Shown here: piece after piece, positions 1 to 40,808 of the stretch
Numbering within the stretch: the first letter of the stretch is position 1
Layout: each line of letters starts with the position of its first letter
NCBI RefSeq assembly: GCF_003751225.1
Contig: NZ_RJKE01000001.1
Location: forward strand, 4,960,001-5,024,000
Length of the DNA stretch: 64,000 bases
DNA from: Actinocorallia herbida
GTDB lineage: Bacteria; Actinomycetota; Actinomycetes; Streptosporangiales; Streptosporangiaceae
Reading direction: 5' to 3'
Notes under the pieces: generated by a model
What the model saw: only the letters and a program-made list of their open reading frames with translations
What the model was told of the DNA's origin: nothing
Database searches by the model: none
Position numbers and translations under genes: made by a program

Positions 1-1
1 C

Positions 2-5899
<5,898 letters not shown>

Positions 5900-5915: not shown

Positions 5916-7388
5916 ATGAACGACCATGTCGTGATCGTCGGAGCCGGTCCCGGCGGGCTCATGCTCGCGTGCGAGCTGGCCCTCGCCGGGGTCCGCACCA
6001 CCGTGCTGGACCGGCGGACGGGACGCTCCCACGAATCGGGCGGGGCCCTGCTGCACGCCCGCTGCGTGGAGACGCTGCGGCAGCGGGGCATCGCGGAGCG
6101 GTTCGGCGACGCGGCCACCCCGCGCTGGAACCGGACCCATTTCGGGCTGCTGTACATCGAGTTCGACGACGAGCTCGGCGAGACCGAGTACGACTGGCTC
6201 ATCCCGCAGGTCCGCACCGAGGAACTGCTGGAGGAGCGGGCGCTGGAGCTCGGCGTCGAGGTGCTGCACGGGCAGGAGGTGACCGGGGTCGCCCAGGACG
6301 TCGACGGCGTCACCGTGACCGCGGTGTCGGCGGAGGGCGAACGGACCGTACGCGGCGCCTTCCTCGTAGGCGCGGACGGGGTGCACAGCACGGTCGCCCG
6401 CCTCTGCGGGTTCTCCTACGAGGACTTCGCCCCGGCCTACTACGGGGTGACGGCCGACGTCGGCGACTTCGCCGGCAACCGCGACCAGTTCGTCAACGGC
6501 CTGTACCCGGGCGGGCAGCTCGGCATCCTGCCGCTCCAGCCGGGCCGCATCCGGATCATGACGGTCGAGTGGGAGGGACGCGCCGTCCCTGCGGACGTCC
6601 CGGTGACCCGTGAGGAGGTCCTGGACAGCGTCCGCAGGCTCGTCGGCCACGCCCCCGACATCGCGGAGCCGACCTGGATGGAGCGGAACGGCCACCCCAC
6701 CCGGCTCGCGCGCGCCTACCGGGACGGCCGCGTGCTGCTCGTCGGCGACGCCGCCCACTCCCACCCGCCGTCCTCCGGCAACGGCATGGTCACCACCGTC
6801 CACGACGCCGTCAACCTGGGCTGGAAACTCGCCGCCGAGGTCCAAGGACGGGCGCCGAAAGGGCTGCTCGACAGCTACCACGCCGAACGCCACCCGGTGG
6901 GGCGGCGGGCGTGCGTGCGGGCCGCGGCGCAGATCGCGATCCAGCACCCGCTGGAGCGGCTCGGGCCACTGCGGGAGGTCCTGGCCGGGCTCGTCGAGAT
7001 GCGGGAGGTGCAGCGGTACCTCGTCCAGTACGTCACCGAGGTGTCCTACGTCTTCGACTACCCGGACGTGCCCGGCGAGCGGCACGAGCTGATCGGAACC
7101 CGTTTCCCCGAGGTGCCCGTGACGCGCCCCGACGGCGCCTCGCTCACGACCTACGAGCCCCTGGCGGGCGGCCGCGGGCTCCTGCTCGACCTCACGGGCA
7201 AGCCAGGGGCCCTGCCCGACCTTCCGGCCGGCGTCGCCGACCTGGTCGAGGTGGTGACGGTCGAGCCGGTCGCCGCGCTCGACGCCCGCGCCGTGCTGGT
7301 CCGCCCCGACGGCTTCGTCGCCTGGGCCGACCGCGGTCCGGACGGCGACGCCGGACTTCTCCACGCGCTCCGCGAGTGGTTCGGCTGA
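5916..7388 (+). CDS. FAD-dependent monooxygenase (aromatic hydroxylase / PheA-TfdB type)
   Basis: A 490-residue flavoprotein hydroxylase. It has the N-terminal dinucleotide motif GAGPGG (residues 9-14), the DG motif GADGVHS (about 150-157) and the GD motif VGDAAHSHPPSSGNG (about 275-289) that binds the FAD ribityl chain. The C-terminal thioredoxin-like extension is typical of this length class. The start ATG follows an AGGGAGA ribosome site 17 bases after the PKS stop, so it is probably co-transcribed with the PKS. These enzymes use NAD(P)H and O2 to hydroxylate electron-rich aromatic or enolic rings. In this cluster the likely job is oxidative tailoring of the polyketide or of the enolised heterocycle; that role is inferred from position only. 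Confidence 0.9.
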   Translation: MNDHVVIVGAGPGGLMLACELALAGVRTTVLDRRTGRSHESGGALLHARCVETLRQRGIAERFGDAATPRWNRTHFGLLYIEFDDELGETEYDWLIPQVRTEELLEERALELGVEVLHGQEVTGVAQDVDGVTVTAVSAEGERTVRGAFLVGADGVHSTVARLCGFSYEDFAPAYYGVTADVGDFAGNRDQFVNGLYPGGQLGILPLQPGRIRIMTVEWEGRAVPADVPVTREEVLDSVRRLVGHAPDIAEPTWMERNGHPTRLARAYRDGRVLLVGDAAHSHPPSSGNGMVTTVHDAVNLGWKLAAEVQGRAPKGLLDSYHAERHPVGRRACVRAAAQIAIQHPLERLGPLREVLAGLVEMREVQRYLVQYVTEVSYVFDYPDVPGERHELIGTRFPEVPVTRPDGASLTTYEPLAGGRGLLLDLTGKPGALPDLPAGVADLVEVVTVEPVAALDARAVLVRPDGFVAWADRGPDGDAGLLHALREWFG

Positions 7389-7496: not shown

Positions 7497-8351
7497 ATGT
7501 CCGACGGCCTCCGCGTTCTCGGAACCGCCGCGCACGTCGCCCGTCTGCTCGGCGGCGACTCCAGCATCCACAGCCTGTACGGCCCCGAGGGCTCGCCCGT
7601 CTACCATTTCCTCACCCGCTACGACGAGGCCGACGCCGAGGCGATGCTGGCCGTCGCCGAAGGCCGCAAGGGCACCCTGCTCGAACTCGCGTGCGGCTCG
7701 GGAAGGCTCACCTTCCCGTTCCTGGAGGAGGGGTTCGACGCGGTCGGCCTCGACATGTCGCCGTACATGCTCGGCCTGTTCGCGGCGCGGCTCGAGGAGG
7801 AGAAGGAGGACGGCGCCGACTACACCGGCCGCGTCTCCACCATCGAGGGCGACATGACCTCGTTCTCCCTCGATCGCACCTTCGACTTCATCACGCTCGG
7901 CGCCAACGCGATCAGCTACCTGGAGAGCGACCAGCGCGCGTCGCTGTTCGACTCCGTGCGCCGCCACCTCAGCGCCGACGGGCGCTTCCTGATGACCCTC
8001 ATCGAGTTCCCCGGCATCGAGGAGCGCGCGGAGTCGTTCGAGACCCAGGCGATCGTCGCGACCGGCGCCGACGCCGACATCCCGATGCTGCTGACCCTGC
8101 TCGACTACGTGGACCCGGTCGAGATGCTGCGGTCCAGCAACTTCCTGGCCCACCGGGTCGAGGACGGCGACATCATCGACACCAAGATCTTCACGGCGCT
8201 GTCCCACGTGCTCCCGGCCGCCCCGCTCCGTGCGGAGATCGAGGCGGCCGGGCTGCGGGTGCTACAGCAGCATGAGGTGGTCAGCCAGTTCCAGATCCAG
8301 GCGTCCTTCGCCATCACGCCGAAGATCTACCTGCTCGAAGCGGCCCTGTAG
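7497..8351 (+). CDS. Class I SAM-dependent methyltransferase
   Basis: A 284-residue Rossmann-fold methyltransferase. Motif I is LLELACGSGRL (about residues 61-71), the acidic end of beta-2 is VGLDMS, and the post-motif region EGDMTSFSL with DFITLGANAISYL is typical of small-molecule N- or O-methyltransferases. The ATG is preceded by AAAAGGGG. It lies 108 bases downstream of the monooxygenase, past a 13-bp hairpin, so it may be read through or have its own promoter. It is convergent with the NTF2-like gene 22 bases later. Substrate unknown; an oxygen or ring nitrogen of the cluster product is a reasonable guess. Confidence 0.85.
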   Translation: MSDGLRVLGTAAHVARLLGGDSSIHSLYGPEGSPVYHFLTRYDEADAEAMLAVAEGRKGTLLELACGSGRLTFPFLEEGFDAVGLDMSPYMLGLFAARLEEEKEDGADYTGRVSTIEGDMTSFSLDRTFDFITLGANAISYLESDQRASLFDSVRRHLSADGRFLMTLIEFPGIEERAESFETQAIVATGADADIPMLLTLLDYVDPVEMLRSSNFLAHRVEDGDIIDTKIFTALSHVLPAAPLRAEIEAAGLRVLQQHEVVSQFQIQASFAITPKIYLLEAAL

Positions 8352-8373: not shown

Positions 8374-8853
8374 TCAGCCGGCCCCGGGGGAGGTCCGGCC
8401 GAGCCGGCTGAAGGATTGACCGCCGTGCTCGCCCCACAGATGGGTGATGGCCTCGATCGTGCAGTAGTCGCGGAACAGGACGATCCGGCCATCGCGGACG
8501 CGGAGGACCTGGATGTAGGGCGCCTGGAACCGCTCGCCGGTGCCGATGTCCTCGGTGCGGGAGATGAACTCCGCGACGACGACCTCGGGGTCGTCGGTCT
8601 CGTAGACGGTCTCCTCGAGGTGGTCGAGCAGGCGGCGGGTGCCCCGGGTCGCGTGCTCCAGGGCGGCCGAGATGATCAGGCGGATGGTCTCCCTGCCCTC
8701 GAACCGCCGCGGCATGCCGTCCGCCGAGAACGGGACCTCCAGCACCCCGTCCTCGGCGAACAGGTCGGCCTGGCCGTCGGCGTCGAGCCGGGAAATGCGC
8801 TCCTGTTTGAGCAGGAAGACCTCTTTGGGCGTCAAGAGCCTGTCGTGGTCCAT
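8374..8853 (-). CDS. NTF2/SnoaL-like fold protein
   Basis: A 159-residue protein with the length and pattern of the cone-shaped NTF2-like superfamily: an N-terminal helix (LTPKEVFLLKQERISRLD), FAEDGVLEVPF on strand 1, then LFRDYCTIEAITHLWGE near the C-terminus, resembling SnoaL/PhzA-type members. Such proteins act as cyclases, isomerases or non-catalytic ligand binders in antibiotic clusters. It is transcribed divergently from the giant PKS at 9036 and shares its 182-base control region. A cyclisation or binding role is inferred from fold and context; no catalytic residues can be named with confidence. Confidence 0.75.
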   Translation of the reverse strand: MDHDRLLTPKEVFLLKQERISRLDADGQADLFAEDGVLEVPFSADGMPRRFEGRETIRLIISAALEHATRGTRRLLDHLEETVYETDDPEVVVAEFISRTEDIGTGERFQAPYIQVLRVRDGRIVLFRDYCTIEAITHLWGEHGGQSFSRLGRTSPGAG

Positions 8854-9035: not shown

Positions 9036-28310
<19,275 letters not shown>

Positions 28311-28433: not shown

Positions 28434-29201
28434 TCAGCCGGCGACGCGGACCCGGTCGGCGTCGCGGGCGAGGATGGTCCGCTGCGCCTCGCGGAGCCTG
28501 GCCCCCGGTTCGAGGCCGAGCTCCCGGTCGAGGGTCTCCCACGCGGTCCGGTAGACGCGCAGCGCGTCGGCGCGCCGCCCGGAGCTGTACAGCGCGCGCA
28601 TCAGCTGCTCGTAGAAGACCTCGTTGAGCGGGTGCTCGTTGATCAGCCCGTAGAGCGAGCTGACCAGCTCCCGGTGGCGGCCCAGCATCAGCTTCGTCTC
28701 CACGAGCCGCTCCAGGCACTCCACCCGGATCTCCTCGATCCGGGTCACCAGGCCCCGGCCCATCGGCCCGATCGGCAGGCCGCTGAGCATCGGACCGCAC
28801 CACAGGCCGAGGGCCTGCTCGAACGCCGCGAGCGCCTCCTCGCCGCGGCCCCGCATCAGATGGCCGCGGCCCGTCCTGACGAGCTCCTGGAACACCAGGT
28901 AGTCGATGTCCTCCGGGTCGACCTTCAGCAGGTATCCCGGCGCCTGCGTGACGATCGGGCTGTCCTCGTCGCCGGGCCGGGACAGGAGCTTGCGGAGCTG
29001 GGAGATGTAGACGTGCAGCGCGGGGACGGCGCGCAGCGGCGGATCCTCGTCCCAGATCTCCCCGATGAGCTGCTTGGTCGAGACGACCTGGTTCGCGTGC
29101 ACCACGAGCACCGCGAGCGCGGTGCCCATCTTCTGGGCCTGGATCACCTGCGCGGTGTCCCCGTCGACCAGCTTGATCGGTCCCAGCACCTGGTACTTCA
29201 C
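28434..29201 (-). CDS. SARP-family transcriptional activator (AfsR/DnrI type, short form)
   Basis: A 255-residue two-domain SARP. The winged-helix trans_reg_C domain covers about residues 20-95 (TKQLIGEIWDEDPP, then VPALHVYISQLRKLL), and the bacterial transcriptional activation domain about 98-245 (the DYLVFQELV, RRADALRVYRTAWETL and ELGLEPGARLREAQ pattern). There is no ATPase extension. The GTG start overlaps the NRPS stop as GTGA, so translation is coupled to the NRPS. SARPs bind 11-bp-phased direct repeats near the -35 box; such repeats lie before the giant PKS at 8929-8961. Likely pathway-specific activator. Confidence 0.93.
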   Translation of the reverse strand: MKYQVLGPIKLVDGDTAQVIQAQKMGTALAVLVVHANQVVSTKQLIGEIWDEDPPLRAVPALHVYISQLRKLLSRPGDEDSPIVTQAPGYLLKVDPEDIDYLVFQELVRTGRGHLMRGRGEEALAAFEQALGLWCGPMLSGLPIGPMGRGLVTRIEEIRVECLERLVETKLMLGRHRELVSSLYGLINEHPLNEVFYEQLMRALYSSGRRADALRVYRTAWETLDRELGLEPGARLREAQRTILARDADRVRVAG

Positions 29202-32200
29202 AGGCCGCCTCCTCTCCGGATCCTGGCGGCCAGCGCCAGCGGCGTCGGATGTTCGAATATCTCGGCGAGCGGCACGACCACCGAGGTGAGCTCCTCCACC
29301 CGCTGGCCCAGCAGCGCGCCCTGGAGCGAGTTCCCGCCGCTGAGGAAGAAGTTGGTGTCGCCGTCGGCCCCCGGGACGCCGAGCAGATCGCGCCAGATCC
29401 CGAGGAGGGCCGTCACGAGCTCGTCGTCGACGGGTGCGGCGTCACCGGAACCGGCCGGTCCGGTGCGCTCGGCCGCGAGCCGGGTGAGCGCCGGGTAGTC
29501 GACCTTGTCGTTGGCGGTCTTGGGGAACTCCGCCAGCTCCGCGAACTCCGCCGGGACCATGGACCTCGGCAGCCGTTCGCCCGCCCAGCGCCACAGCTCG
29601 TCGGCCGGCGGCGCCGTGCCCGCCGGGGCGACGAACGCGACGAGCCGGCCGTCCGCGGTGGGGTCGCCGTCGAGGACGACGGCCACCGACCGCAGCGCGG
29701 GGTGCTCGGCCAGGACCGCCTCGATCTCGCCCAGCTCGATCCGGTTGCCGCGCAGCTTGATCTGCCGGTCCCCGCGGCCGAGCAGGACGAGGCTGCCGTC
29801 GGCCTGCCAGTAGGCGGCGTCACCGGTCCGGTAGTACCGGCCGAGCCCCGGCGCTTCGGGGAACCGCTCCGCGGTCAGGTCCGGACGGCCGTGGTAGCCG
29901 TCGGCCAGACCGCCTCCGGCGATGCACAGCTCGCCCCGCACCCCGATCGGCAGCGGCCTGCCGCGCGGATCCAGGACGTGCGCCCGGGTGTCGCGAATGG
30001 GCCGCCCGACGTCCATCCTGCGCCCGACCGGCCCCGGCACGACCGCCGAGGTCGACCAGATCGTCGTCTCGGTCGGCCCGTAGACGTGGTGGAGTTCGCA
30101 TCCGGTCTCCAGCAGCCGCCTGGCCAGCTCGGGCGCGAGCGGTTCGCCGCCGCTGAGCACCTGGCGGCCGCCCAGCGCCGACCCCGCCTCGTCCAGGACG
30201 GCCCGCCAGGTGGTGGGCGTCGCCTGGACCGCGTGGGCGCCGTGCCGCTCGATCAGCTCGGCGAGGACCCGGCCGTCGACCCTGGCCCGGTCGGGGGCGA
30301 CGACGACCAGGCCGCCCGAGGCCAGTGGGACGAAGAGCTCCAGGCCCGAGATGTCGAAGGCGAACGTGGTCAGCCATACCGTCGCGTGGCCGGCGTCCGC
30401 GCCGAGCTCGTCGGTGAAGTGGGCGACGAGGTTGGCCAGCGCGGCCCGCCCCACGAGGGTGCCCTTCGGCTTGCCGGTGGAACCCGAGGTGTACATCAGG
30501 TAGGCGAGCGCGGCCCGGTCGTCGTCCGGACCCCGATCCCGGGGGACGTCCGCGGTGTCCGGCGCCTCCGGGATCTCCAGGATCGCCGGGGCGTCGGCCG
30601 CGGGCCTGCGACCGTGCCACAGGAGCGTGCGGGCGCCGGAGTCGGTCAGCTGGTGGGCGACGCGCGGCGCCGGATGGTCGGGGTCGATCGGGAGGTAGGC
30701 GGCGCCGGTCAGCCACACGCCGAGGACGGCGGCGGCCAGTTCCGGTCCGCGGGGGGCGGCGATCGCCACGATGTCCCCGGGTCCCGTGCCGGCCAGCAGG
30801 TCGCGGACGGCGAGCGCGCCCGCCCACAGGCCACCGCGGGTGACGACGCGGTCGCCGTCGAGGACGGCGGGGGCCGCGGGGTTCTCGACGGCGCGGGCGT
30901 GCACGGCGGTGAGCACGCCGGGCGCGGGCCCTGCCTCGGTCGCGTTGGCGGCGTCGATGACGGCGTGGTCGCGGTCGCCCCACGCCCGCAGCGCGCCGAC
31001 GGGCGCGTCCGGGTTCTCGTCGAGCGCGCGGAGCAGCCGCTCATAGCGGTCGAGCAGCAGCTCGACGTCGTCCCGGTCGAACAGCTCGGTCCGGTACACC
31101 GCCCGGATCCGGACGGCGTCCGGCGCGGACATCACGAACAGCTCGATGTCGAACTTGGCGGCGCCGTTCTCCAGGTGCAGCGGCTCGGCCTTGACCCCGT
31201 CGAGCGCGAACGGCGGGATGCCGAAGCCCTCGACGTAGTTGAAGGCGTGCTGGAACAGCATGGTCCGCCAGGAGTCGCCGGACCGGTCCGCGCGGCGCGT
31301 CAGCTCGTCCACCGGGACGTCGGCGTGCAGCAGGGCGTCGAAGTAGAGGTCGCGGACGCGCCGGACGAAGTCCCGGCCGCTCTCGGCGTGGTCGATCGCG
31401 GTCCGCAGCGGCAGCACGTTGACGTGGTAGCCGATGGCCCGGGGCGCGGACCGCGGCCTGGTGTTCACCGGGACGCCCACGACGAGGTCGGGGCCCGCGC
31501 CGTGCGCGTCGAGCAGCAGCAGGTGGGCGGCGAGCAGGACGACCGTCTCCGGGGCGCGCACCGCCCGCTGGATCCGCCGCACGGCCGCGATGACCGGGTC
31601 CGGCAGCGCGCGCAGCAGATGGTCGCCCGCCAGGGTCGGCGCGGACACGTCCGGCCGGCCGCACCACAGGTCGGCGGGGCGCGCGACCAGGCCGGTCAGC
31701 CGCCCGCGCCAGTGCGCCTCGCTCTCGGCCGTGACGGGCGGGTCGGGCAGCGCGGGCACCGTCCCGGTGAGCGTCGCGGGCAGCGGCCCGCCCGCGGCGA
31801 GCGCGGTGTAGGCGGCCGCGAACTCCTCGACGAACACCGGGATCGACGTGGCGTCGAAGACGAGATGGTGGACGACGAAGCAGAGGCCGTCCGCGCGTTC
31901 ACCGGCCAGGACGGCGGCGCGGACCAGGGGTTCGTCCGCGAACGCGAAGGGCATGGCGACGAACGGGGCGAGGTCCTCCTCGGGGACTCCGCCGGAGGCG
32001 GACAGCAGGGTCACGTCCGGGGCTTCGGCCGAGGCGGGCAGGACCGTCCGGACGAGCGCCACGCCGTCCGCCCGGAACACGGTGCGCAGGGACTCGTGCC
32101 GTCGTATCAGGGCGGTCAGCGCGGCCCGGACCGCGGGGACCGAGAGCCGGCCGTCGGTGCGGAAGCCGAAGGCGAGATTGTTCGGGACCCGGTCCGGGGT

Positions 32201-32272
32201 CATCCGGTCGAGCAGCCAGAGCGCCTCCTCCTTGACCGAGGCCGTCTCCGCGGTCGGCGTCGCGTCGTTCAT
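29198..32272 (-). CDS. Single-module NRPS, C-A(Gly)-PCP
   Basis: A 1024-residue single module. The condensation domain has HHLVFDATS (about residues 131-139; HHxxxD kept, usual Gly replaced by Ala). The adenylation domain has YTSGSTGKPKG (near 592-602), FAFDISGLELF, YGPTETTIW, YRTGD and NDKVDY. Reading the ten pocket positions by alignment gives D-I-L-Q-L-G-V-I-W-K, one change from the glycine code DILQLGLIWK. The PCP has GGNSL (Ser near residue 979). There is no TE or epimerase. The ATG overlaps the upstream cyclase stop as ATGA, and its own stop overlaps the SARP start. It should accept the beta-ketoacyl chain from the last PKS ACP, amidate it with glycine and present a beta-ketoacyl-glycyl thioester to the cyclase. 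The architecture matches TrdD of tirandamycin. Confidence 0.93.
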   Translation of the reverse strand: MNDATPTAETASVKEEALWLLDRMTPDRVPNNLAFGFRTDGRLSVPAVRAALTALIRRHESLRTVFRADGVALVRTVLPASAEAPDVTLLSASGGVPEEDLAPFVAMPFAFADEPLVRAAVLAGERADGLCFVVHHLVFDATSIPVFVEEFAAAYTALAAGGPLPATLTGTVPALPDPPVTAESEAHWRGRLTGLVARPADLWCGRPDVSAPTLAGDHLLRALPDPVIAAVRRIQRAVRAPETVVLLAAHLLLLDAHGAGPDLVVGVPVNTRPRSAPRAIGYHVNVLPLRTAIDHAESGRDFVRRVRDLYFDALLHADVPVDELTRRADRSGDSWRTMLFQHAFNYVEGFGIPPFALDGVKAEPLHLENGAAKFDIELFVMSAPDAVRIRAVYRTELFDRDDVELLLDRYERLLRALDENPDAPVGALRAWGDRDHAVIDAANATEAGPAPGVLTAVHARAVENPAAPAVLDGDRVVTRGGLWAGALAVRDLLAGTGPGDIVAIAAPRGPELAAAVLGVWLTGAAYLPIDPDHPAPRVAHQLTDSGARTLLWHGRRPAADAPAILEIPEAPDTADVPRDRGPDDDRAALAYLMYTSGSTGKPKGTLVGRAALANLVAHFTDELGADAGHATVWLTTFAFDISGLELFVPLASGGLVVVAPDRARVDGRVLAELIERHGAHAVQATPTTWRAVLDEAGSALGGRQVLSGGEPLAPELARRLLETGCELHHVYGPTETTIWSTSAVVPGPVGRRMDVGRPIRDTRAHVLDPRGRPLPIGVRGELCIAGGGLADGYHGRPDLTAERFPEAPGLGRYYRTGDAAYWQADGSLVLLGRGDRQIKLRGNRIELGEIEAVLAEHPALRSVAVVLDGDPTADGRLVAFVAPAGTAPPADELWRWAGERLPRSMVPAEFAELAEFPKTANDKVDYPALTRLAAERTGPAGSGDAAPVDDELVTALLGIWRDLLGVPGADGDTNFFLSGGNSLQGALLGQRVEELTSVVVPLAEIFEHPTPLALAARIRRGGGL

Positions 32273-33087
32273 CGCGCCCCCTCGATGAGCAGGTCGTGGA
32301 CCGCGGCGGCGACCTCCGGAGCGCGCAACAGCTCGGCGTGCGGGAGGTCGAACCGGATCTCCCGCGCGACGACGCCCTCGCGCCGGCCGGCGGGCAGCGT
32401 GTTGAGGCCGTTGTGCTCGCTCGCCGAGGTGATCGCGGTCGCCGCGGCCCAGCCTCGGCCCGGGTCCAGCTCGGCCGCCGACACCAGGTAGGACAGGAAC
32501 GCGCGGAAGCCGCCGAGCAGCTCGGCGGAGCGGTCGGCCGCCAGGCCGATCCTGGTGAGGGCGGGTTCTCCGTGCGCCACGACGAGGTCGCTCAGCACTT
32601 TGGCCAGTTCCGGCATCGCGGTGCGCTCGGCCAGTGCGGCGTCCCCGTCGGTGCGGGCCGCCGTGGCCTGGTCGGCGGTCAGGAAGCCGGTGAGCGCGCC
32701 GATGGCGTCGAGGTAGTGGCGGTGCAGCAGGGCGGGGTGCGGCGCCTCGGGGTCGAAGACGATCAGTGCGGGCGGCTCCTGCCAGGCCGAGATCCGCTCG
32801 ACCAGACCGGCGCCGAACACACTGCCGACGCAGTAGCCGAGAACGCACCGGACCGTCATTCCGGAGGCTCGGGCCTCCGCGGCCCAACGGTCGAGATGAT
32901 CGTCGGCGGACCGGTCCCCGGGGGCCGGCGGCCTGGTCTCCCAGACGGCCTCGGAGGTCGGCACCTTCGGGATCAGGTCACTGAAGGAACCGACGGTCCG
33001 CCCCGTGGCGGCGGCGAAATCCGAAGCGAGTATCAGGTCCGCGGTCGAAGAACCGCGAAGGACATTGAACGCGACCGGCTGTGCCAT
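32269..33087 (-). CDS. Discrete Dieckmann cyclase (TrdC/SlgL/KirHI type), alpha/beta-hydrolase fold
   Basis: A 272-residue alpha/beta-hydrolase resembling a type II thioesterase, but with Cys in the nucleophile elbow: LGYCVGS, Cys86. Asp112 (LIVFDPEAPH) and His251 (FDLPHAELL) complete a Cys-Asp-His triad at nearly the spacing known for TrdC (Cys88, Asp115, His253). That family releases NRPS-bound beta-ketoacyl-aminoacyl thioesters by Dieckmann condensation, giving tetramic acids or pyridones. With the adjacent glycine NRPS, a 3-acyl tetramic acid is the expected product. The stop overlaps the NRPS start (ATGA). It is divergent from the 33305 gene across a 217-base promoter region with TAGGGG boxes. 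An editing thioesterase is the alternative; the Cys, the spacing and the neighbours argue against it. Confidence 0.85.
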   Translation of the reverse strand: MAQPVAFNVLRGSSTADLILASDFAAATGRTVGSFSDLIPKVPTSEAVWETRPPAPGDRSADDHLDRWAAEARASGMTVRCVLGYCVGSVFGAGLVERISAWQEPPALIVFDPEAPHPALLHRHYLDAIGALTGFLTADQATAARTDGDAALAERTAMPELAKVLSDLVVAHGEPALTRIGLAADRSAELLGGFRAFLSYLVSAAELDPGRGWAAATAITSASEHNGLNTLPAGRREGVVAREIRFDLPHAELLRAPEVAAAVHDLLIEGAR

Positions 33088-33247: not shown

Positions 33248-33304
33248 CCTGCCCGAACGGAATGCCGAAATCGAGCCGGAATTTCCCGCAGAACTGGAGT
33301 GGGC

Positions 33305-33607
33305 ATGAGCATCGACGGAACCTGGCATCTGACTCTCGACAGCGCCATGGGGCGGCAGGAATTCGACTTCGATCTGAAGGCCGCCGGAGCCGAGCTGATC
33401 GGCACCGGATCCGCCGAGGGGCGCGAGGTCGTCCCGGAGATCATCGCGGGCACGCTGGACGGCGCGCACGCGTCCTGGAAGCTCAAGATCCGCAAGCCGA
33501 TGAAGCTCACCATGACGTTCACCGTCGAGGTCGACGGCGATCACATGACCGGCAAGACCAAGGCCGGGATCTTCGGCAGCTTCCCGGTGCAGGGCCGGCG
33601 GACCTGA
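33305..33607 (+). CDS. Small predicted beta-barrel (calycin-like) protein of unknown function
   Basis: A 100-residue protein with no recognised motif. Its alternating pattern suggests about eight beta strands: GTWHLTLDS, QEFDFDLKAAG, AELIGTGSAEG, GTLDGAHASWKLKI, PMKLTMTFTVEVDGD, HMTGKTKAGIFGSFPVQG. This strand-turn rhythm with an N-terminal GTW recalls small calycin or lipocalin-like barrels. The ATG at 33305 is chosen over an in-frame GTG six bases upstream because GGAG lies at the right distance. Its stop overlaps the SDR start (TGATG), so the two are made together. Some small barrels in polyketide pathways act as pericyclases or spirocyclases; here that is only a hypothesis. Confidence 0.75.
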   Translation: MSIDGTWHLTLDSAMGRQEFDFDLKAAGAELIGTGSAEGREVVPEIIAGTLDGAHASWKLKIRKPMKLTMTFTVEVDGDHMTGKTKAGIFGSFPVQGRRT

Positions 33608-34401
33608 TGGGGCCGGTGACCCGGCCGCGGACCGACCCCGCGGGGCCCTTCGCCGGCGCCACCGCCCTGGTGACGGGCGGCGGTTCCGGGATCGGCCTGG
33701 CGACGGCCCGCATGCTCGCCGCCCGCGGCGCCGCCGTCGCCTGCGTCGACCTGGACCCGTCCGCCGTCGACGGCCCGCTGACCGGGCTGCGGGGCGACAT
33801 CGCCGACGACGGCGTCGCCGAGGTCGTCGCGGAGGCCGCCGAGCTCCTCGGCGGGCTCGACATCCTGGTCAACCATGCCGGGCTGCTGGCCCGCGGCTCC
33901 TTCGAGGGCAACCCGCTGGACGAGTGGCGCAGGGTGTTCGAGGTGAACGTCCTCGGGACGGTCCGGGTGAGCCGGGCGGCGATGCCGTGGCTGCGCGCGT
34001 CCGCCCGGTCGGGCCGGGATCCGGCGATCGTGAACACCTGCTCGATCACCGCGCTGGTCGGGATGCCCGGTGGGGCCGTCTACGGCGCGTCCAAGGGCGC
34101 GGTGTACTCGCTGACCCTGTCGATGGCGGCCGACCTGCTCGACGAAGGCGTACGGGTCAACTGCGTGGCGCCGGGGCCGGTCGACACCCCGTGGGTGCGC
34201 AGGGAACTCGCCGCCGCGCCCGACCCGGAGGCGGCCCTCAAGGCGGTCCACGCGCGGCAGCCCAACGGTCGGCTGATCACCGCGGACGAGGTGGCCGAGG
34301 CGATCTGCCACCTGGCGGGGCCCCTCTCGGCGGCCACGACCGGGACCGTGCACGTCATCGACGGCGGCCTGCTGGGGCTCCGCGTGCCCCAGCGGCCCTA
34401 A
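33607..34401 (+). CDS. Short-chain dehydrogenase/reductase (classical SDR)
   Basis: A 264-residue classical SDR. The cofactor motif is TGGGSGIG (residues 23-30) and Asp48 at the end of beta-2 (CVDLD) favours NAD(H). The active site is Ser146, Tyr159 and Lys163 (YGASK), with the structural motif NHAG (89-92) in place of the usual NNAG. PGPVDTPW and the C-terminal VHVIDGGL are standard. The start overlaps the stop of the preceding small protein. It probably reduces or oxidises a keto or hydroxyl group on the cluster product; substrate unknown. Confidence 0.9.
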   Translation: MGPVTRPRTDPAGPFAGATALVTGGGSGIGLATARMLAARGAAVACVDLDPSAVDGPLTGLRGDIADDGVAEVVAEAAELLGGLDILVNHAGLLARGSFEGNPLDEWRRVFEVNVLGTVRVSRAAMPWLRASARSGRDPAIVNTCSITALVGMPGGAVYGASKGAVYSLTLSMAADLLDEGVRVNCVAPGPVDTPWVRRELAAAPDPEAALKAVHARQPNGRLITADEVAEAICHLAGPLSAATTGTVHVIDGGLLGLRVPQRP

Positions 34402-34441: not shown

Positions 34442-35044
34442 ATGACAACGAGGAGGACGCCCGAGGATCGGCGTGACGAGATCCTCACCGCGGCCATGAG
34501 CGTCTTCGGCCGCTACGGCTACCGCAGGACCTCCATGGAGCTGATCGCGAAGGCCGCGGGGATCTCGCGTCCTGCGCTGTACCAGCACTTCAGTGGACGC
34601 GAGGACGTCTTCCGCGCGATGGGGACCCGGATGCTCGACGGGGTGCTGAGCACCGCGCGGGACGCCGCGAGCGCGCCCGGCTCCCTGGTCGACAGGCTGT
34701 ACGCGGCCCTGTCGGTCAAGCTCGAACTCGTGCTGGGCTCGGTCGACGCCGAGCACCGGGGCGAGCTGCTCAATGAGGCCGGCACCGTCGCGGCGGACCT
34801 GCTGGTCTCCTTCAAGAAGAAGTTCGCGGACCTGATCGAGGATCTGCTCGCGGCATCGTCCGGTGAGCTCTCCCTCGGGACGGTCATCTCGGCGCGCGAC
34901 TGCGCAGAACTCCTGCTCGACACCGTCGTCGGCATCAGCCAGGCCGATGCCCCGCCCGAGTCGCTGCACCGCAGGCTGCACCAGATGGTGGAGCTGACGG
35001 TGCTCGGACTGAGTCCCGGACCGATGGCGACGACGGCACCCTGA
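34442..35044 (+). CDS. TetR-family repressor
   Basis: A 200-residue TetR regulator. The DNA-binding HTH spans about residues 12-58 (ILTAAMSVFGRYGYRRTSMELIAKAAGISRPALYQHFSGRED), followed by a helical ligand domain with no recognisable signature. It precedes an MFS exporter gene by 35 bases and is probably co-transcribed with it, the usual arrangement for ligand-responsive self-resistance. A 26-base palindrome overlaps its own promoter. Confidence 0.92.
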   Translation: MTTRRTPEDRRDEILTAAMSVFGRYGYRRTSMELIAKAAGISRPALYQHFSGREDVFRAMGTRMLDGVLSTARDAASAPGSLVDRLYAALSVKLELVLGSVDAEHRGELLNEAGTVAADLLVSFKKKFADLIEDLLAASSGELSLGTVISARDCAELLLDTVVGISQADAPPESLHRRLHQMVELTVLGLSPGPMATTAP

Positions 35045-35079: not shown

Positions 35080-36636
35080 ATGGATGCCGCTCGAATTCAC
35101 AGCCGACGCTGGCTGATCCTCTCCGTTCTGAGTCTCTGCCTGGTGATCAGCGGCCTCGACGCGCTGGTCATCGCGATGGCGGTGCCCAAGATCCAGATGG
35201 ATCTCGGCGCCACCGTCGGCGAGATGCAGTGGTCGGTCGACGCCTACACGCTGGCGTTCGGCGGGCTGCTCCTGCTCGCCGGAACGCTCGGCGACCGCTA
35301 CGGCCACAAGCTCATGCTGGTCGGCGGGCTCGTCCTCATCCTCGCCTTCTCCGTCGCCGCGGCGTTCGCCGGAGGCCCCGGCACGCTCATCGCGTTCCGG
35401 GCGGGCATGGGGATCGGCTCGGCGATGGTCATGCCCGCCACCCTCGCGATCATCAAGCACGTCTTCCCGCCCGAGGAGCAGGCCAAGGCGATCGGCGTGT
35501 GGTCGGGCGCCGCCGGCATCGGCATCCCGCTCGGCCCGGTGGTCGGCGGCCTGCTGCTCGACCACTACTGGTGGGGCTCGATCTTCCTGATCAACATCCC
35601 GGTCGTCGCGATCGCGCTGCTGGGCGCCGTCCTGCTCATCCCCAGCTGGCGTTCGGCGAAGGTCATCAAGCTGGACCTCGTCGGCGCTTTCCTGTCGGTC
35701 GCCGGCCTGGTGACGCTCGTCTACGGCCTCATCGAGGCGTCCTCGCGCGGCTGGGGCAGCGGGGCCACGCTGGCCTCCCTGCTCGGCGGAGCCGTGCTCC
35801 TCGGCGCCTTCATCACCTGGGAGGCCCGGTCGGCGAACCCGATGCTGCCGCTGTCGCTGTTCGCGAACCGGCGGTTCAGCGGATCCGCCGCCGCCCTGGC
35901 CTGCCAGGCGTTCGCGCTCTTCGGCAGCCTCTTCGTGCTCACCCAGTACTTCCAGATCGCCAGGGCCCACGACCCGCTCGCCTCGGGCGTGCGCATCCTG
36001 GCCATCTGCACGCTGATCATCTCCTCGCCGCTGGCGCCGAGCCTCGTGAAGATCATCGGTGACAAGCTCACCATCATCGTCGGGATGGTGCTCATCGGGG
36101 TCGGCGCGTTCGCGCTGTCGACCGCCGCCGTCGACGCCGAGACGACGGTCCTCATCAGCCTCGCCGTCATGGGCTTCGGCATCGGCCTGTCGATCCCGCC
36201 GTCGGTCGACGGCATCCTCGCGAACGCTCCCGACCACCAGGCCGGCACCGCGTCCGCGGTCAACGACACCGCGCTCCAGGTCGGCGGCGCGATCGGCGTG
36301 GCGGTCCTCGGCACGGCCATGACCTCGGCCTACCAGAACGCGCTGCCGTCCCTCGACGGGCTGAGCGAGGCCGACCGGTCCGCCGTCCAGGACTCGCTCG
36401 GCAGCGCCCTCGCCGCCACCGCGCGGCTCGGCGGCGACGCGGCACGGATCGCCGCCGAGGCCACCGAGGCCTTCGGCTCCGGCCTCCAGGCCGCGGCGAT
36501 CACCAGCGGGTGCGTCGCGCTCGTGGGCGCCGCGGTCACGGCCTTCCTCATGCCGCGCGGCCTGAAGGAGCCCGCCAAGCCCCACGCCGCCCCCGACCCC
36601 GTCCCGCAGGAGAAGCCACTGGGCGTCACCGACTAG
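35080..36636 (+). CDS. MFS drug exporter, DHA2 (14-TM) type
   Basis: A 518-residue hydrophobic protein of the length and pattern of 14-helix DHA2 drug:H+ antiporters. The first helix holds LILSVLSLCLVISGLDALVIAMA, followed by VDAYTLAFGGLLLLAGTLGDRYGHK (motif A between TM2 and TM3) and GAAGIGIPLGPVVGG (motif C, the antiporter signature). A TAGGAG ribosome site precedes the ATG. It follows the TetR gene and ends at a strong hairpin. Likely exporter of, and self-resistance determinant for, the cluster product. Confidence 0.92.
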   Translation: MDAARIHSRRWLILSVLSLCLVISGLDALVIAMAVPKIQMDLGATVGEMQWSVDAYTLAFGGLLLLAGTLGDRYGHKLMLVGGLVLILAFSVAAAFAGGPGTLIAFRAGMGIGSAMVMPATLAIIKHVFPPEEQAKAIGVWSGAAGIGIPLGPVVGGLLLDHYWWGSIFLINIPVVAIALLGAVLLIPSWRSAKVIKLDLVGAFLSVAGLVTLVYGLIEASSRGWGSGATLASLLGGAVLLGAFITWEARSANPMLPLSLFANRRFSGSAAALACQAFALFGSLFVLTQYFQIARAHDPLASGVRILAICTLIISSPLAPSLVKIIGDKLTIIVGMVLIGVGAFALSTAAVDAETTVLISLAVMGFGIGLSIPPSVDGILANAPDHQAGTASAVNDTALQVGGAIGVAVLGTAMTSAYQNALPSLDGLSEADRSAVQDSLGSALAATARLGGDAARIAAEATEAFGSGLQAAAITSGCVALVGAAVTAFLMPRGLKEPAKPHAAPDPVPQEKPLGVTD

Positions 36637-36793: not shown

Positions 36794-36862
36794 GCGATTC
36801 GGCCGAGGACATGAACGGCACCGCCATTCGCCATCATGATTGTGCTGACAGGGAGTGCTCCC

Positions 36863-37897
36863 GTGGATTTCAGTCTGTTCTACTTCGCCGACACCGGTAT
36901 CGCGGCACAGCACAGATACCAACTCCTGATCGAGGGCGCCAAGTTCGCCGACACCCACGGTTTCTCCGCGGTGTGGACCCCGGAACGCCATTTCCATTCC
37001 TTCGGCGGCCTCTATCCCAATCCATCGGTGACCTCCGCCGCCGTCGCCGCCGTCACCGAGCGCGTCGGCGTCCGGGCGGGCAGCGTGGTCGCGCCGCTGC
37101 ACCATCCCGTCCGGATCGCCGAGGAGTGGTCGGTCGTGGACAACCTCTCCGGAGGCCGCGCCGGGATCGCCTTCGCCTCCGGCTGGAACGCGGTGGACTT
37201 CGCGCTGCGGCCGGAGAACTTCAGCGACAGCAAGCGCGTGCTCGGCGAGACCGTCGAGGCGGTCCGGCGGCTGTGGCGCCAGGAGGAACTCGAGTTCGTC
37301 GACGGCGCGGGCGGCACCTCCGCGGTGCGGATCTTCCCGCCGCCCATCCAGCCCGAACTCCCGGTCTGGCTGACCAGCGCGGGCTCGATCGAGACCTTCC
37401 GCAAAGCCGGCGAGCTGGGCGTCGGCGTCCTCACCCACCTGCTCGGCCAGGACCTCGACGACCTGGCCGGCAAGATCGGGGTCTATCGGGAGACCCACGC
37501 CGAGCACCACGGCGGGCCCGGCCACGTCGCGCTCATGCTGCACACCTACATCGGGACCGACCGGGACGAGGTCAGGGAGCTGGTCCGCGCTCCTTTCAGC
37601 ACCTACCTCCGCAGTTCCCTCGGCCTGTTCAAGCGGGCCATCGGCGCGGACATGCCCGGAATCGACCTGGAGCGGCTGACCCCGGCCGACCTCGATTTCC
37701 TCGTGGCCCGCGCCTTCGACCGCTATTTCGACACCGGCGGCCTGTTCGGCACCGTGTCGGATGCGCTGAAGACGGTCAAGACGCTCAAGGACATCGGCGT
37801 CGACGATCTCGCCTGCCTCGTCGACTTCGGCATCGACACCGAGACCGCGCTGGACGGGCTCGGCCGCCTCGATGAGGTGCGGCGAATCCAGCACTGA
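36863..37897 (+). CDS. LLM-class (luciferase-like) flavin-dependent monooxygenase, MupA/Atu3671 type
   Basis: A 344-residue TIM-barrel flavoprotein of the bacterial luciferase superfamily. The N-terminus VDFSLFYFADT is characteristic of the MupA/Atu3671 group found in PKS and NRPS clusters. Further features are FSAVWTPERHFHSFGGLYPNPSV, VAPLHHPVRIAEEWSVVDNLSGGR and FASGWN. The GTG at 36863 is preferred over an ATG 27 bases upstream because AGGGAG lies 7 bases before it and family members begin at this point. These enzymes use reduced FMN and O2 for hydroxylation or Baeyer-Villiger-type oxidation. Its exact step is unknown; tailoring of the acyl tetramate or its glycine carbon is possible. Confidence 0.88.
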   Translation: MDFSLFYFADTGIAAQHRYQLLIEGAKFADTHGFSAVWTPERHFHSFGGLYPNPSVTSAAVAAVTERVGVRAGSVVAPLHHPVRIAEEWSVVDNLSGGRAGIAFASGWNAVDFALRPENFSDSKRVLGETVEAVRRLWRQEELEFVDGAGGTSAVRIFPPPIQPELPVWLTSAGSIETFRKAGELGVGVLTHLLGQDLDDLAGKIGVYRETHAEHHGGPGHVALMLHTYIGTDRDEVRELVRAPFSTYLRSSLGLFKRAIGADMPGIDLERLTPADLDFLVARAFDRYFDTGGLFGTVSDALKTVKTLKDIGVDDLACLVDFGIDTETALDGLGRLDEVRRIQH

Positions 37898-38072
37898 TCT
37901 TGGTCGGCCGAACAGTGTAGCCGGGCCGAAACTCGGCCGGTCACGCGGGTATAAAGCAATCGTGACCTTGCTTCTTGCCCGGTGCGCCGAACGGATGAGA
38001 GAGTCGGATCGGTCCCGGGAACCATCGCACAATCCATCCATTGCCTAGCGCCTCTGGGGTGTGCGTGTCACG

Positions 38073-40808
38073 ATGGAACGCATAGCTGAGTTCGAGATCC
38101 TCTCCTCGCTTCTGTCCGATGTCCTCCAAGGGAAAGGAGGCGCGGCCCTCGTTACCGGTCTCGTCGGTTATGGCAGAACCAGTTTGCTGCGGTCTCTCGG
38201 CAACGAAGCCGTGGCCCGTGGCGCCATTTTCCTCAGTGCGACCGCGCCCCGCGCCGACGACGACGCCGTCGAGCTTTTCGGCCAACTCCTGCTGCATCCG
38301 CGGATTCCGTCGTCGACGGTCGGCAACCTGTCCGAACTCTGGGGCGACAGGGCCCGCCCACCGTCCGCCGCCCAGCTGTACCGGGTGTGGCGGCCGGTCC
38401 AGGAGTTCGCCGAGCGGACCCCCGTGGTCATCGGCATCGACGACGCCCACCACGCCGGCACCGATGTGCTGCGGGCCTTGCTGTACCTCACGCGGCGGCT
38501 GGAGACGGTGCCGATCCTCGTCGTGGTGACGCTGTCGTCCTGCCCGCTCGACGAGCGTCCCCAGTTCGCCGCCGAGATGAGCAGCCAGCCGCACGTCCGG
38601 CACGTCCGGCTCGACCCGCTGCCGCCGACGGCGGTGGCCGCCGCGATCCGGCGCGATCTCGGCCCCGCCGCGGCGGAGTCCGACCACAGCAGCTTCCTCC
38701 GGCTCAGCGCCGGCAACCCGCTGCTGCTGTCCGCGCTGATCGCCGACGCCCGCGACCACCGGCCCCCGGCCGAGGCGGCGGTGGCGGGAGGCCACTACGT
38801 ACGCGCGGTGTGGCGCTTCCTGCACCGCAGCGACCCGGTGATCACCCAGCTCGCGCAGGCCATCGCGGTCCTCGACGGGGAGGCCACGCCCGGCCTGCTC
38901 GCCGAGATCCTCGCCATGGACCCGACCGTCGCCGCCCAAGGGCTGCACGCCCTTGAGGCGTCCGGCCTGCTCTGCGGCCAGACGTTCCGGGCCGCGGCCG
39001 CCCGCGACAGCATCCGGTCCAAGATCCCCGCCAAACGCCAGGCCGAACTGCTGCGGCGCGCGGCGGCCGTCCTGCGGGACGACGGGGAACCACCGATCCG
39101 CCTCGCCAGGCTGCTGGCGGAGGCGGGCGACGTCGACGAGCCGTGGATGGTCGACGTCCTGCGGGACGCCGCCGACCAGGAGGAGCGCAGCGGGGACTTC
39201 CCGCGCGCCGTCCGCTACCTGCGGCTGGCCCGCCACGCCTCGGTGCGGGGCGGGCCGGAGCACGCCCAGATCACCTCGGATCTGGCCGCCGCGGAATGGC
39301 AGATCGACCCGCTCTCGGTCGTCCGCCTCCTGCCCGACCTCGACACCGCGGCCCGGGAGGGCAGGCTCAACGCCTCCCAGGCCGAGAACCTCGTCACCTA
39401 TCTGCTCTGGCACGGGCAGCGGGAGAACGCCGAGGCGCTCCTGACGGGCGGCACCGCCATCGCCGCCCCGGACGGCTGGGCGGAGCGCTTCCGCTCCTGG
39501 CTCTACCCGTCGCTGATCCCGGAGATCCTTCCGGCGGACGGCGACCGTTCGGTCGAGGACGCGGTGATCCCCGGCATCGAGATCGACGACGACATGCTCA
39601 TCGCGGCCGAGCAGGCACTGCTGAAGACCCGGCTCGACGACTCCGCCCTGGTCCCGGCCCTGAACGCCCTCGCCGTCCTCGTCTACACCGAGCGCTTGGA
39701 ACGTGCCGGAACCTGGATCGACATCCTGCTGCGGGCCGCCGACCGGCGCGGCTCGGTGACGTGGCAGGCGCTGCTGTCCACGGCGCTGTCCATCATCGAC
39801 CTGCGCCGCGGCGACCTGTGCTCCGCCGACGCAGACGCGCGGCGGGCGCTGTCCCTGCTGTCCAACCGGAGCTGGGGGATGGCGATCGGACTTCCGCTGT
39901 CGAGCGCGATGAACGCCCTGACCGACCGGTGCCGCCACGACGAGACGGAGGCGCTGCTCGCGGTCCCGCTGCCCGACGGCATGTTCCAGACCCTGCCGGG
40001 CCTCTACTACATGCACGCGCGGGCGCGTCACCACACCGCGATCGGGCACCATCCGACGGCGCTCGCCGACTACAACTCCTGCGGTGACCTGATGCGCTCC
40101 TGGGGGATCGACCAGCCGGGACTGATCCCGTGGCGGAGCGGCGCCGCGCTGGCCGGGCTGCAGCTCGGCCGCACCGCCTACGCCCGGTCGCTGCTGGCCG
40201 AGGAGCTGGAGCTGACCGAGCCCTGGGACCTGCGGACCCGCGGCGGGACGCTGGGCGTGCTGGCCCTGCTCATGGACGGCGCCGACCGGATCAAGGTGCT
40301 CACCGAGGCGGCGGCGGCGCTCGAGCAGACCTCCGACCTCGTCGGGCTGGCGCACGTCCTCACCGAGCTCAGCAGATCCCTGCAGGCGGTGGACGAGCCG
40401 ACCGCCGCGCAGGCCACCTGGCAGCGGGCGAGCGCGCTGATCGCCAGAACCGGGATGGAGTCCCCGTTCGAGGGCCCGGCCCCGGCGCAGTCCCCGACCG
40501 AGCCCGGCCCCTCGGCGACGGAGTTGAGCGACGCCGAGCAGCGGGTGGCCTCGCTGGCCGCGGCGGGCCTGTCCAACCGGGAGATCGCGACCAGGCTGTT
40601 CATCACGGTCAGCACGGTCGAGCAGCATCTCACCCGGGTCTACCGGAAGCTGAACGTGAGCCGCCGCCCGCACCTCGCCAAGGCCCTCGGCGGCCTGGCC
40701 TTACCGGGCCGACGTGCACGACCCGCGGGGGCGTCGGCGCCTACTCGGCGCCCCCGGGCAGGCCCGCCCGCCCGAACCCTGCCTCGACGATCTCCCGCCA
40801 CGCCCTGA
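38073..40808 (+). CDS. LAL-type LuxR-family transcriptional regulator with a TTA codon
   Basis: A 911-residue protein of LAL layout: N-terminal P-loop ATPase, a long TPR-like helical middle and a C-terminal LuxR HTH (about residues 817-875: LSDAEQRVASLAAAGLSNRE, then STVEQHLTRVYRKL). Walker A reads GLVGYGRT (29-36), with Arg35 where Lys is normal; Walker B is VVIGIDDAHHA. A TTA leucine codon at 40701-40703 sits just after the HTH, so complete translation may depend on the rare leucyl-tRNA (BldA) known in related actinomycetes. ATG 38073 is preferred; an in-frame GTG lies 12 bases upstream. The last 30 or so residues are Arg/Pro-rich and overlap a convergent small gene. Probably a cluster activator; the TAGGGG boxes are possible targets. 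Confidence 0.9.
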   Translation: MERIAEFEILSSLLSDVLQGKGGAALVTGLVGYGRTSLLRSLGNEAVARGAIFLSATAPRADDDAVELFGQLLLHPRIPSSTVGNLSELWGDRARPPSAAQLYRVWRPVQEFAERTPVVIGIDDAHHAGTDVLRALLYLTRRLETVPILVVVTLSSCPLDERPQFAAEMSSQPHVRHVRLDPLPPTAVAAAIRRDLGPAAAESDHSSFLRLSAGNPLLLSALIADARDHRPPAEAAVAGGHYVRAVWRFLHRSDPVITQLAQAIAVLDGEATPGLLAEILAMDPTVAAQGLHALEASGLLCGQTFRAAAARDSIRSKIPAKRQAELLRRAAAVLRDDGEPPIRLARLLAEAGDVDEPWMVDVLRDAADQEERSGDFPRAVRYLRLARHASVRGGPEHAQITSDLAAAEWQIDPLSVVRLLPDLDTAAREGRLNASQAENLVTYLLWHGQRENAEALLTGGTAIAAPDGWAERFRSWLYPSLIPEILPADGDRSVEDAVIPGIEIDDDMLIAAEQALLKTRLDDSALVPALNALAVLVYTERLERAGTWIDILLRAADRRGSVTWQALLSTALSIIDLRRGDLCSADADARRALSLLSNRSWGMAIGLPLSSAMNALTDRCRHDETEALLAVPLPDGMFQTLPGLYYMHARARHHTAIGHHPTALADYNSCGDLMRSWGIDQPGLIPWRSGAALAGLQLGRTAYARSLLAEELELTEPWDLRTRGGTLGVLALLMDGADRIKVLTEAAAALEQTSDLVGLAHVLTELSRSLQAVDEPTAAQATWQRASALIARTGMESPFEGPAPAQSPTEPGPSATELSDAEQRVASLAAAGLSNREIATRLFITVSTVEQHLTRVYRKLNVSRRPHLAKALGGLALPGRRARPAGASAPTRRPRAGPPARTLPRRSPATP

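Follow-up and report, generated by a model that had tools for sequence, protein, structure and literature searches.

The window analysed here, a 64 000-nt stretch of Actinocorallia herbida (positions 4960001–5024000 on a single 9.8-Mb contig), carries a gene for a nonribosomal peptide synthetase (NRPS) and, adjoining it, a gene for a discrete 272-aa protein. We propose, at a probability of about 0.7, that these form the release end of a modular polyketide synthase (PKS)-NRPS line for a 3-decalinoyl glycyl tetramic acid, with the 272-aa protein acting as Dieckmann cyclase and an enzyme of the flavin adenine dinucleotide (FAD) type acting alongside it. Our best reading of the cluster makes it a bacterial equivalent of the equisetin pathway in fungi. 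The parts that carry the proposal, namely the gene set, domain order, catalytic triad, pocket code, fold and clade, are observed. An earlier sequence-only reading had proposed an acyl tetramate pathway here; its Dieckmann and glycine enzymology stands, while the simple acyl tetramate gives way to a decalin-bearing one, because a decalin is indicated by PKS modules lying outside the window and by a flavoenzyme from the PyrE3-type [4+2] clade. Labels of the form G### and L### denote the genomes and loci compared, XYL denotes Streptomyces xylophagus contig 53, and papers, given by PMC number, are cited from partial texts.

A discrete Dieckmann cyclase beside a glycine-type NRPS

By sequence and by model, the 272-aa protein belongs to the Dieckmann cyclases of the NcmC/TrdC type, the cyclisation itself being predicted. 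A phmmer search of PDB sequences returned two NcmC sequences (E 1.1e-42 and 3.8e-41, the best match spanning residues 3–267), the only significant ones; the third match, at E 0.52, is a chance one. NcmC served as the reference in place of TrdC, SlgL, KirHI and FacHI. Cys86 lies within GYCVGS, Asp112 within VFDPEAP and His250 within DLPHAELL; Cys86 aligns with the residue altered in the NcmC C89S variant 6e6u, and the triad matches the NcmC positions. The sequence-only reading had named the first two residues correctly and placed the histidine one residue too far on, at 251. Among 32 aligned homologues, hand-picked and mostly better-scoring from 77 distinct cyclase places, the Cys is present in 32, the Asp in 31 and the His in 31, the exception (L063) lacking both Asp and His. 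Since the NcmC match is full-length and orthologous clusters occur in other genomes, the assignment goes beyond chance.

An AlphaFold2 model built from these 32 homologues, with NcmC left out, has a mean predicted local distance difference test score (pLDDT) of 92.3. Foldseek placed four NcmC chains on top, with a template modelling (TM) score of 0.88–0.91 by query, a root-mean-square deviation (rmsd) of 1.7–2.0 and 37–38% identity; the other 46 listed rows have TM 0.60 or lower by query, thioesterases being the next best. Four long helices of the model (118–135, 138–154, 158–179 and 184–204) make up a helical subdomain as in NcmC, whose type combines an alpha/beta hydrolase core, Cys-Asp-His and a four-helix subdomain (PMC10956176). 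The alpha/beta hydrolase core and the rank of the thioesterases are what an ordinary type II (editing) thioesterase would also give, the alternative that the earlier reading had named. Cys in place of Ser, the NcmC-like helical subdomain and the poor fit of the type II thioesterase RifR (TM 0.55/0.60, rmsd 7.1–7.9) contradict that identity, as does the absence of any Pfam match, thioesterase or other, even at E 10, so that we give it hardly any credence. NCBIfam gave no match either.

The cyclase is a discrete protein beside a terminal NRPS that has no thioesterase (TE) domain. The two genes overlap by 4 nt, the cyclase stop and NRPS start sharing ATGA, which fits the translational coupling claimed earlier; the NRPS stop and the start of the following regulator gene share GTGA. 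The NRPS matches the Pfam families Condensation, AMP-binding, AMP-binding_C and PP-binding, the C-A-PCP order described before; the condensation motif is HHLVFDA and the carrier motif GGNSL. Residues of the A-domain pocket are located by conserved motifs, and read here DILQLGVIWK. The first eight are identical to the DILQLGVI of the nocamycin NRPS NcmB, for which glycine is predicted (PMC5466765), in agreement with the glycine-like specificity assigned earlier, and we predict that the A domain activates glycine. The full code recurs in 7 of 14 aligned NRPS stretches (window included); G965 has DILELGVIWK, G920 has DILQIGMIYK, the G598 stretch ends after DILQLGV, and four stretches in G277 and G285 carry unrelated codes. 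The top PDB match, the linear gramicidin synthetase LgrA, was rejected as support for glycine since its two A domains score alike (229 and 235 bits), so the pocket code carries the glycine claim by itself.

A pyridone ring requires a beta-amino acid, and the glycine-type pocket code argues against such a ring here. The invariant Cys nucleophile argues further against the cyclase making some ring other than a tetramate, e.g. a 4-hydroxy-2-pyridone as KirHI does in kirromycin, or acting as a hydrolase; we consider this very unlikely, although the cyclase family is reported in both tetramic acid and pyridone pathways (PMC5466765).

The PKS line in the window and in related clusters

We added 80 kb of upstream sequence to the window to read the whole PKS, keeping all coordinates in the window frame (Table 1). 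Domain profiles derived from the domains of the window itself, with Pfam coordinates as seeds, found 8 ketosynthase (KS), 8 acyltransferase (AT), 6 dehydratase (DH), 3 enoylreductase (ER), 7 ketoreductase (KR) and 8 acyl carrier protein (ACP) domains across three genes, giving a KSQ loading module and seven extension modules. In PKS3 the first KS carries the motif TVDTGQSS; Cys is present in each of the remaining seven KS domains. Under the HAFH/YASH rule for extender selection, the loading AT and those of modules 2, 3, 4 and 7 are malonyl-type and those of modules 1, 5 and 6 methylmalonyl-type. The last module, at the end of PKS2, is KS-AT-KR-ACP; the catalytic Tyr motif is missing from its KR, and the protein stops 13 residues past the ACP match with no TE, in keeping with the earlier claim of a line ending beta-keto without a TE. 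PKS3 starts straight at its KS with no N-terminal docking stretch, while PKS1 and PKS2 start with docking-like helices; C-terminal tails are long in PKS3 and PKS1, and PKS2 has none. From the KSQ start of PKS3, this pattern of docking stretches and tails, and the end of PKS2 at an ACP with a dead KR, we infer the order PKS3, PKS1, PKS2, NRPS.

The start unit would be an ordinary acetyl, from the KSQ and malonyl-type AT, first elongated with methylmalonyl. The predicted chain is CH3CH2CH(CH3)-CH=CH-CH=CH-(CH2)3-CH(CH3)-CH=C(CH3)-CO-, which with malonyl and glycine would give a 2,4,12-trimethyltetradeca-2,8,10-trienoyl tetramate, C21H31NO3. By module logic, itself a motif prediction, the 8,10-diene and the 2-ene are separated by four sp3 carbons (C4–C7) beside the acyl tetramate, and this tether is the right spacing for an intramolecular Diels–Alder reaction to a decalin.

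Related clusters fall into two main types. In G626, gene order and module types agree with those of the window throughout, and S. xylophagus, the single relative from a scan of genome contigs, has the same arrangement up to the end of contig 53. G018 and G937, close relatives counted as one type (G018 and G707 being the same record by coordinates and counted once), have a shorter line in collinear gene order. The loading KS of G018 reads AVDTAQSS, again of the KSQ type, and the modules of this type (DH-KR, DH-KR, DH-ER-KR, DH-ER-KR, DH-KR, keto) repeat the reductive pattern of the window's last six. The extenders of those six differ, being three malonyl, two methylmalonyl and a final malonyl in the window against two malonyl, methylmalonyl, malonyl, methylmalonyl and malonyl in G018 and G937; the predicted G018 core is C18H25NO3. 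The shared reductive pattern supports both the decalin reading and the PKS order.

Homologues of the cyclase were found in 6 of 394 class genomes (E 1e-5), in 25 of 341 family genomes and in 39 of 392 genomes of the S. xylophagus genus (both at E 1e-10). Most of them (30–45% identical) likely serve other tetramates. Seven Streptomyces plasmid records (H1–H7) also carry homologues at 34–39% identity, six of them labelled hypothetical protein and the seventh unannotated. With such labels and no Pfam or NCBIfam match for the cyclase family, pathways of this kind are easily overlooked. A 24-kb contig (L122, G965:C415) shows a third, more diverged cluster with a luciferase-like monooxygenase, a clade flavoenzyme, a methyltransferase, a SnoaL protein, an NRPS (DILELGVIWK) and a Dieckmann cyclase; it may belong to another decalin tetramate.

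A flavoenzyme of the [4+2] cyclase clade and the proposed pathway

The FAD enzyme gene directly follows PKS2. Its PDB matches include FlsO1 (300 bits), ChlE3 (296), PgaE (291) and PyrE3 (278), with Tmn9 (6ui5) also matched at a similar score; we built trees because these scores do not separate oxygenases from cyclases. PyrE3 homologues are described as a group apart from true monooxygenases: TedJ forms a trans-decalin on a tetronate, PyrE3 forms one for pyrroindomycin, and ChlE3 is decalin-forming or homologous to such enzymes (PMC12380092, PMC7489565). In a 23-row tree the FAD enzyme groups with PyrE3, ChlE3, Tmn9 and TedJ at 99/99. In a 40-row tree, which omits two G920 matches (L108 and L112) equal in score to L097 and L111, it falls in a 17-row clade (100/99) with all four solved [4+2] cyclases, leaving outside the three known monooxygenases PgaE, FlsO1 and OxyS and 20 other homologues. 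Within the clade, six enzymes of the window-type and G018-type clusters plus one G920 row make up a branch of their own (100/100). We therefore propose the FAD enzyme as a member of the PyrE3-type clade and a candidate decalin-forming Diels–Alderase. Beside the flavin, its branch has GNG (PPSSGNG) where the three monooxygenases have GQG; the motif may mark a new subgroup of [4+2] cyclases.

Gene linkage agrees with the trees. Nine of 11 genomes with a FAD match in the clade have that gene 4–32 kb from the cyclase on the same contig (separate contigs in the other two), against 0 of 9 genomes whose match lies outside the clade, at the limit of 32 kb. This count uses one FAD match per genome, the best or the nearest, entered manually; one further genome, G413, is not in the tree. 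For G920 the match at 21.8 kb was used, not a higher-scoring one at 53 kb, and in G626 another clade member (L110) lies far from the cyclase. In two linked loci, G865:C1 near 7.0 Mb and G534:C1 near 1.2 Mb, homologues of the Dieckmann cyclase have a TedJ-like and a PyrE3-like flavoenzyme at distances of 21 and 32 kb. On the linear-looking contig G920:C1, equal-score FAD pairs (L097/L108 and L111/L112), and likewise two cyclase matches of equal score, are located close to the two ends, the pattern that terminal repeats would produce.

The chief alternative keeps the glycyl tetramate and drops the enzymatic decalin: the FAD enzyme would be an ordinary monooxygenase, and the product a linear trienoyl tetramate or one that cyclises by itself. 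We regard it as unlikely, in that both trees put the enzyme with the cyclases, the flavin-side GNG departs from the GQG of the three monooxygenases, and the PKS spacing and gene linkage fit a decalin; the near-equal bit scores and one arginine speak for the alternative. That arginine comes from a test suggested by PMC7489565, which gives four NADPH-related arginine positions. Two alignment columns have Arg lost in all four cyclases and kept in the three monooxygenases; the window enzyme has lost one and kept the other, and the match of these columns to the published positions is uncertain. Besides this mixed result, several points weigh against a decalin tetramate. In the tree, the window's FAD group branches beside the known cyclases as their sister and does not fall within them; a FAD match at E 1e-85 is absent from 26 of 40 cyclase-bearing genomes, so Dieckmann cyclases are not generally paired with such an enzyme; the module-4 ER in G018 is a partial match; the AT, KSQ, KR and DH calls depend on motifs taken from the literature; the tailoring roles are guesses; and the pathway and product are predictions from the genes.

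We infer the decalin tetramate pathway, in every reaction, in the timing of the cycloaddition, in tailoring and in all stereochemistry, as follows. On PKS3, malonyl would be decarboxylated to acetyl at the KSQ loading module and extended by modules 1–3; PKS1 (module 4) and PKS2 (modules 5–7) would follow, the last module leaving a beta-keto unit, and the NRPS would add glycine. The trienoyl-beta-ketoacyl-glycyl chain would pass from the PCP to Cys86 of the cyclase, where the alpha-carbon, activated by its position between the beta-keto and amide carbonyls, would attack the thioester, closing the tetramic acid ring and freeing the chain. The FAD enzyme would then steer the [4+2] reaction of the 8,10-diene with the 2-ene, making bonds C3–C8 and C2–C11. 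The expected decalin has methyls at C2 and C4 and a sec-butyl on C11 (C21H31NO3, calculated [M+H]+ 346.2377). The luciferase-like monooxygenase, short-chain dehydrogenase/reductase (SDR) and methyltransferase would decorate it after the cycloaddition, an added O-methyl bringing [M+H]+ to 376.2482.

A bolder version, which we put forward tentatively, is that an actinomycete cluster family pairs a TrdC-type cyclase with its own PyrE3-type branch for small glycyl decalin tetramates and so reaches the equisetin scaffold independently of fungi, that the sec-butyl decalin product is new, and that a 102-aa protein encoded beside the cyclase is a second cyclase setting stereochemistry. This protein, a predicted barrel, is 74–80% conserved in the window-type clusters and, among the clusters examined, occurs only there; it is absent from the G018, G937, G965 and G413 genomes, and has no significant Pfam match. 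Its low-confidence model gives fatty-acid-binding-like fold matches, all above E 0.001, and its role may be that of a binding protein or of a second cyclase.

Known systems, cluster limits and gene inventory

Every part of the cluster belongs to a known family, and actinomycetes are already known to make compounds of this class (lydicamycin, signermycin B, BE-54476). Fungal equisetin-type systems use a PKS-NRPS with a lipocalin-like Diels–Alderase, in contrast to the modular bacterial PKS and FAD enzyme of the window. The likeness would lie in a decalin made from a polyenoyl tetramate (PMC9701702). Nocamycin is close in its release end, where NcmC, a Cys-Asp-His discrete cyclase (38% identical to ours in the overlay), adjoins the C-A-PCP NRPS NcmB and no TE is proposed; it differs in carrying a bicyclic ketal, with no PyrE3-type cyclase or decalin described in the text available (PMC5466765). 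The lydicamycin cluster makes a glycine tetramate on an octalin and has a TrdC-like discrete cyclase, TPA0598_03_00810 (PMC4572681, PMC10956176), but has 17 PKS modules, a guanidinobutyryl starter and a P450, and its Table 5 has no FAD monooxygenase-like enzyme (PMC4572681). The alchivemycin pathway has a TrdC-type enzyme, AvmQ, and an intermediate in which a cis-decalin occurs together with a tetramate-type ring, but it has a macrocyclic product and the jelly-roll AvmM (PMC9349299). PyrE3, ChlE3, TedJ and Tmn9 share a clade with the window's FAD enzyme (PMC12380092, PMC7489565), and serve spirotetramate, spirotetronate, tetronate or polyether-tetronate pathways, while the window group is a separate branch.

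Closest to the predicted product are the actinomycete decalin acyl tetramates BE-54476-A/B and signermycin B, the latter an antibacterial 3-decalinoyl tetramate found through an assay on the histidine kinase WalK (PMC10771470, PMC12056922). The C5 methylene of BE-54476-A is unsubstituted, as glycine would leave it, but the compound is C20H29NO5 with ethyl, OH and OMe groups, and the text available gives no gene cluster for it. The window product may be new, as judged from open-licence papers. In the texts available, the decalin-forming enzyme is not named for lydicamycin (PMC4572681, PMC10956176) or alchivemycin (PMC9349299); the present cluster offers concrete candidates for both rings, plus an exact mass. 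If the proposal is true, flavin [4+2] cyclases would have been recruited to simple acyl tetramates, in parallel to the lipocalin-like enzymes of fungi.

The cluster edges were set by comparison with the G626 region: every gene from PKS1 to the LuxR gene is matched there, but no match was obtained for the five genes beyond PKS1 on the left or the six beyond the LuxR gene on the right. The cluster would thus span about 4943654–5000808, some 57 kb, partly left of the window. Three tailoring genes are conserved in related clusters, for the S-adenosylmethionine (SAM) methyltransferase, the SDR and the MupA-type luciferase-like monooxygenase, the last being present in every related locus long enough to show it, except G920. 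Since the BE-54476-A decalin bears OH and OMe, this gene set at most suggests that the product is hydroxylated and O-methylated.

Table 1. Genes of the cluster in the window frame (mal, malonyl-type; mm, methylmalonyl-type; M, module; SARP, Streptomyces antibiotic regulatory protein; MFS, major facilitator superfamily)
Feature	Position	Strand	Basis and remarks
PKS1	-16346 to -9900 (upstream of window)		Module 4
PKS2 end, last PKS of the line	1..5899 (whole gene -9883 to 5899)	+	M5 mm DH-ER-KR, M6 mm DH-KR, M7 mal dead KR
FAD enzyme, PyrE3/ChlE3/TedJ/Tmn9 [4+2] cyclase clade, proposed decalin-forming Diels–Alderase	5916..7388	+	Trees, linkage to Dieckmann cyclases
Class I SAM methyltransferase, conserved tailoring gene	7497..8351	+	Pfam; 43–90% homologues in related clusters
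SnoaL-like protein	8374..8853	-	Pfam SnoaL_2; conserved in XYL and G626
PKS3	9036..28310	+	KSQ-AT(mal)-ACP loading; M1 mm DH-ER-KR; M2 mal DH-KR; M3 mal DH-KR
SARP-type regulator	28434..29201	-	Pfam BTAD, Trans_reg_C; 52–82% homologues adjoin cyclase in related clusters
NRPS C-A-PCP, 1024 aa, predicted glycine, no TE	29198..32272	-	Pfam; pocket code
Discrete Dieckmann cyclase, 272 aa, Cys86-Asp112-His250	32269..33087	-	phmmer, AlphaFold2 model, Foldseek, triad conservation
Small protein, 102 aa, predicted 8-stranded barrel	33299..33607	+	AlphaFold2, pLDDT only 69.5
SDR, start approximate	33610..34401	+	Pfam; 60–89% homologues in XYL, G626, G598, G018, G937
TetR-type regulator, conserved	34442..35044	+	
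MFS drug-efflux-type transporter, conserved	35080..36636	+	
MupA-family luciferase-like monooxygenase	36836..37897	+	TIGR04020 473 bits, cut-off 244; 66–83% homologues in related clusters
Large LuxR-type regulator, right edge of conserved cluster	38061..40808	+	Present in XYL, G626, G598

To the right of the cluster, with no link to the pathway seen, the window (41254–64000) holds genes for a glycosyl hydrolase of family 5 (endoglycoceramidase-like), an S-adenosyl methyltransferase, an enoyl-CoA hydratase, a PhyH dioxygenase, ABC transporters, acyl-CoA ligases and an acyl-CoA dehydrogenase.

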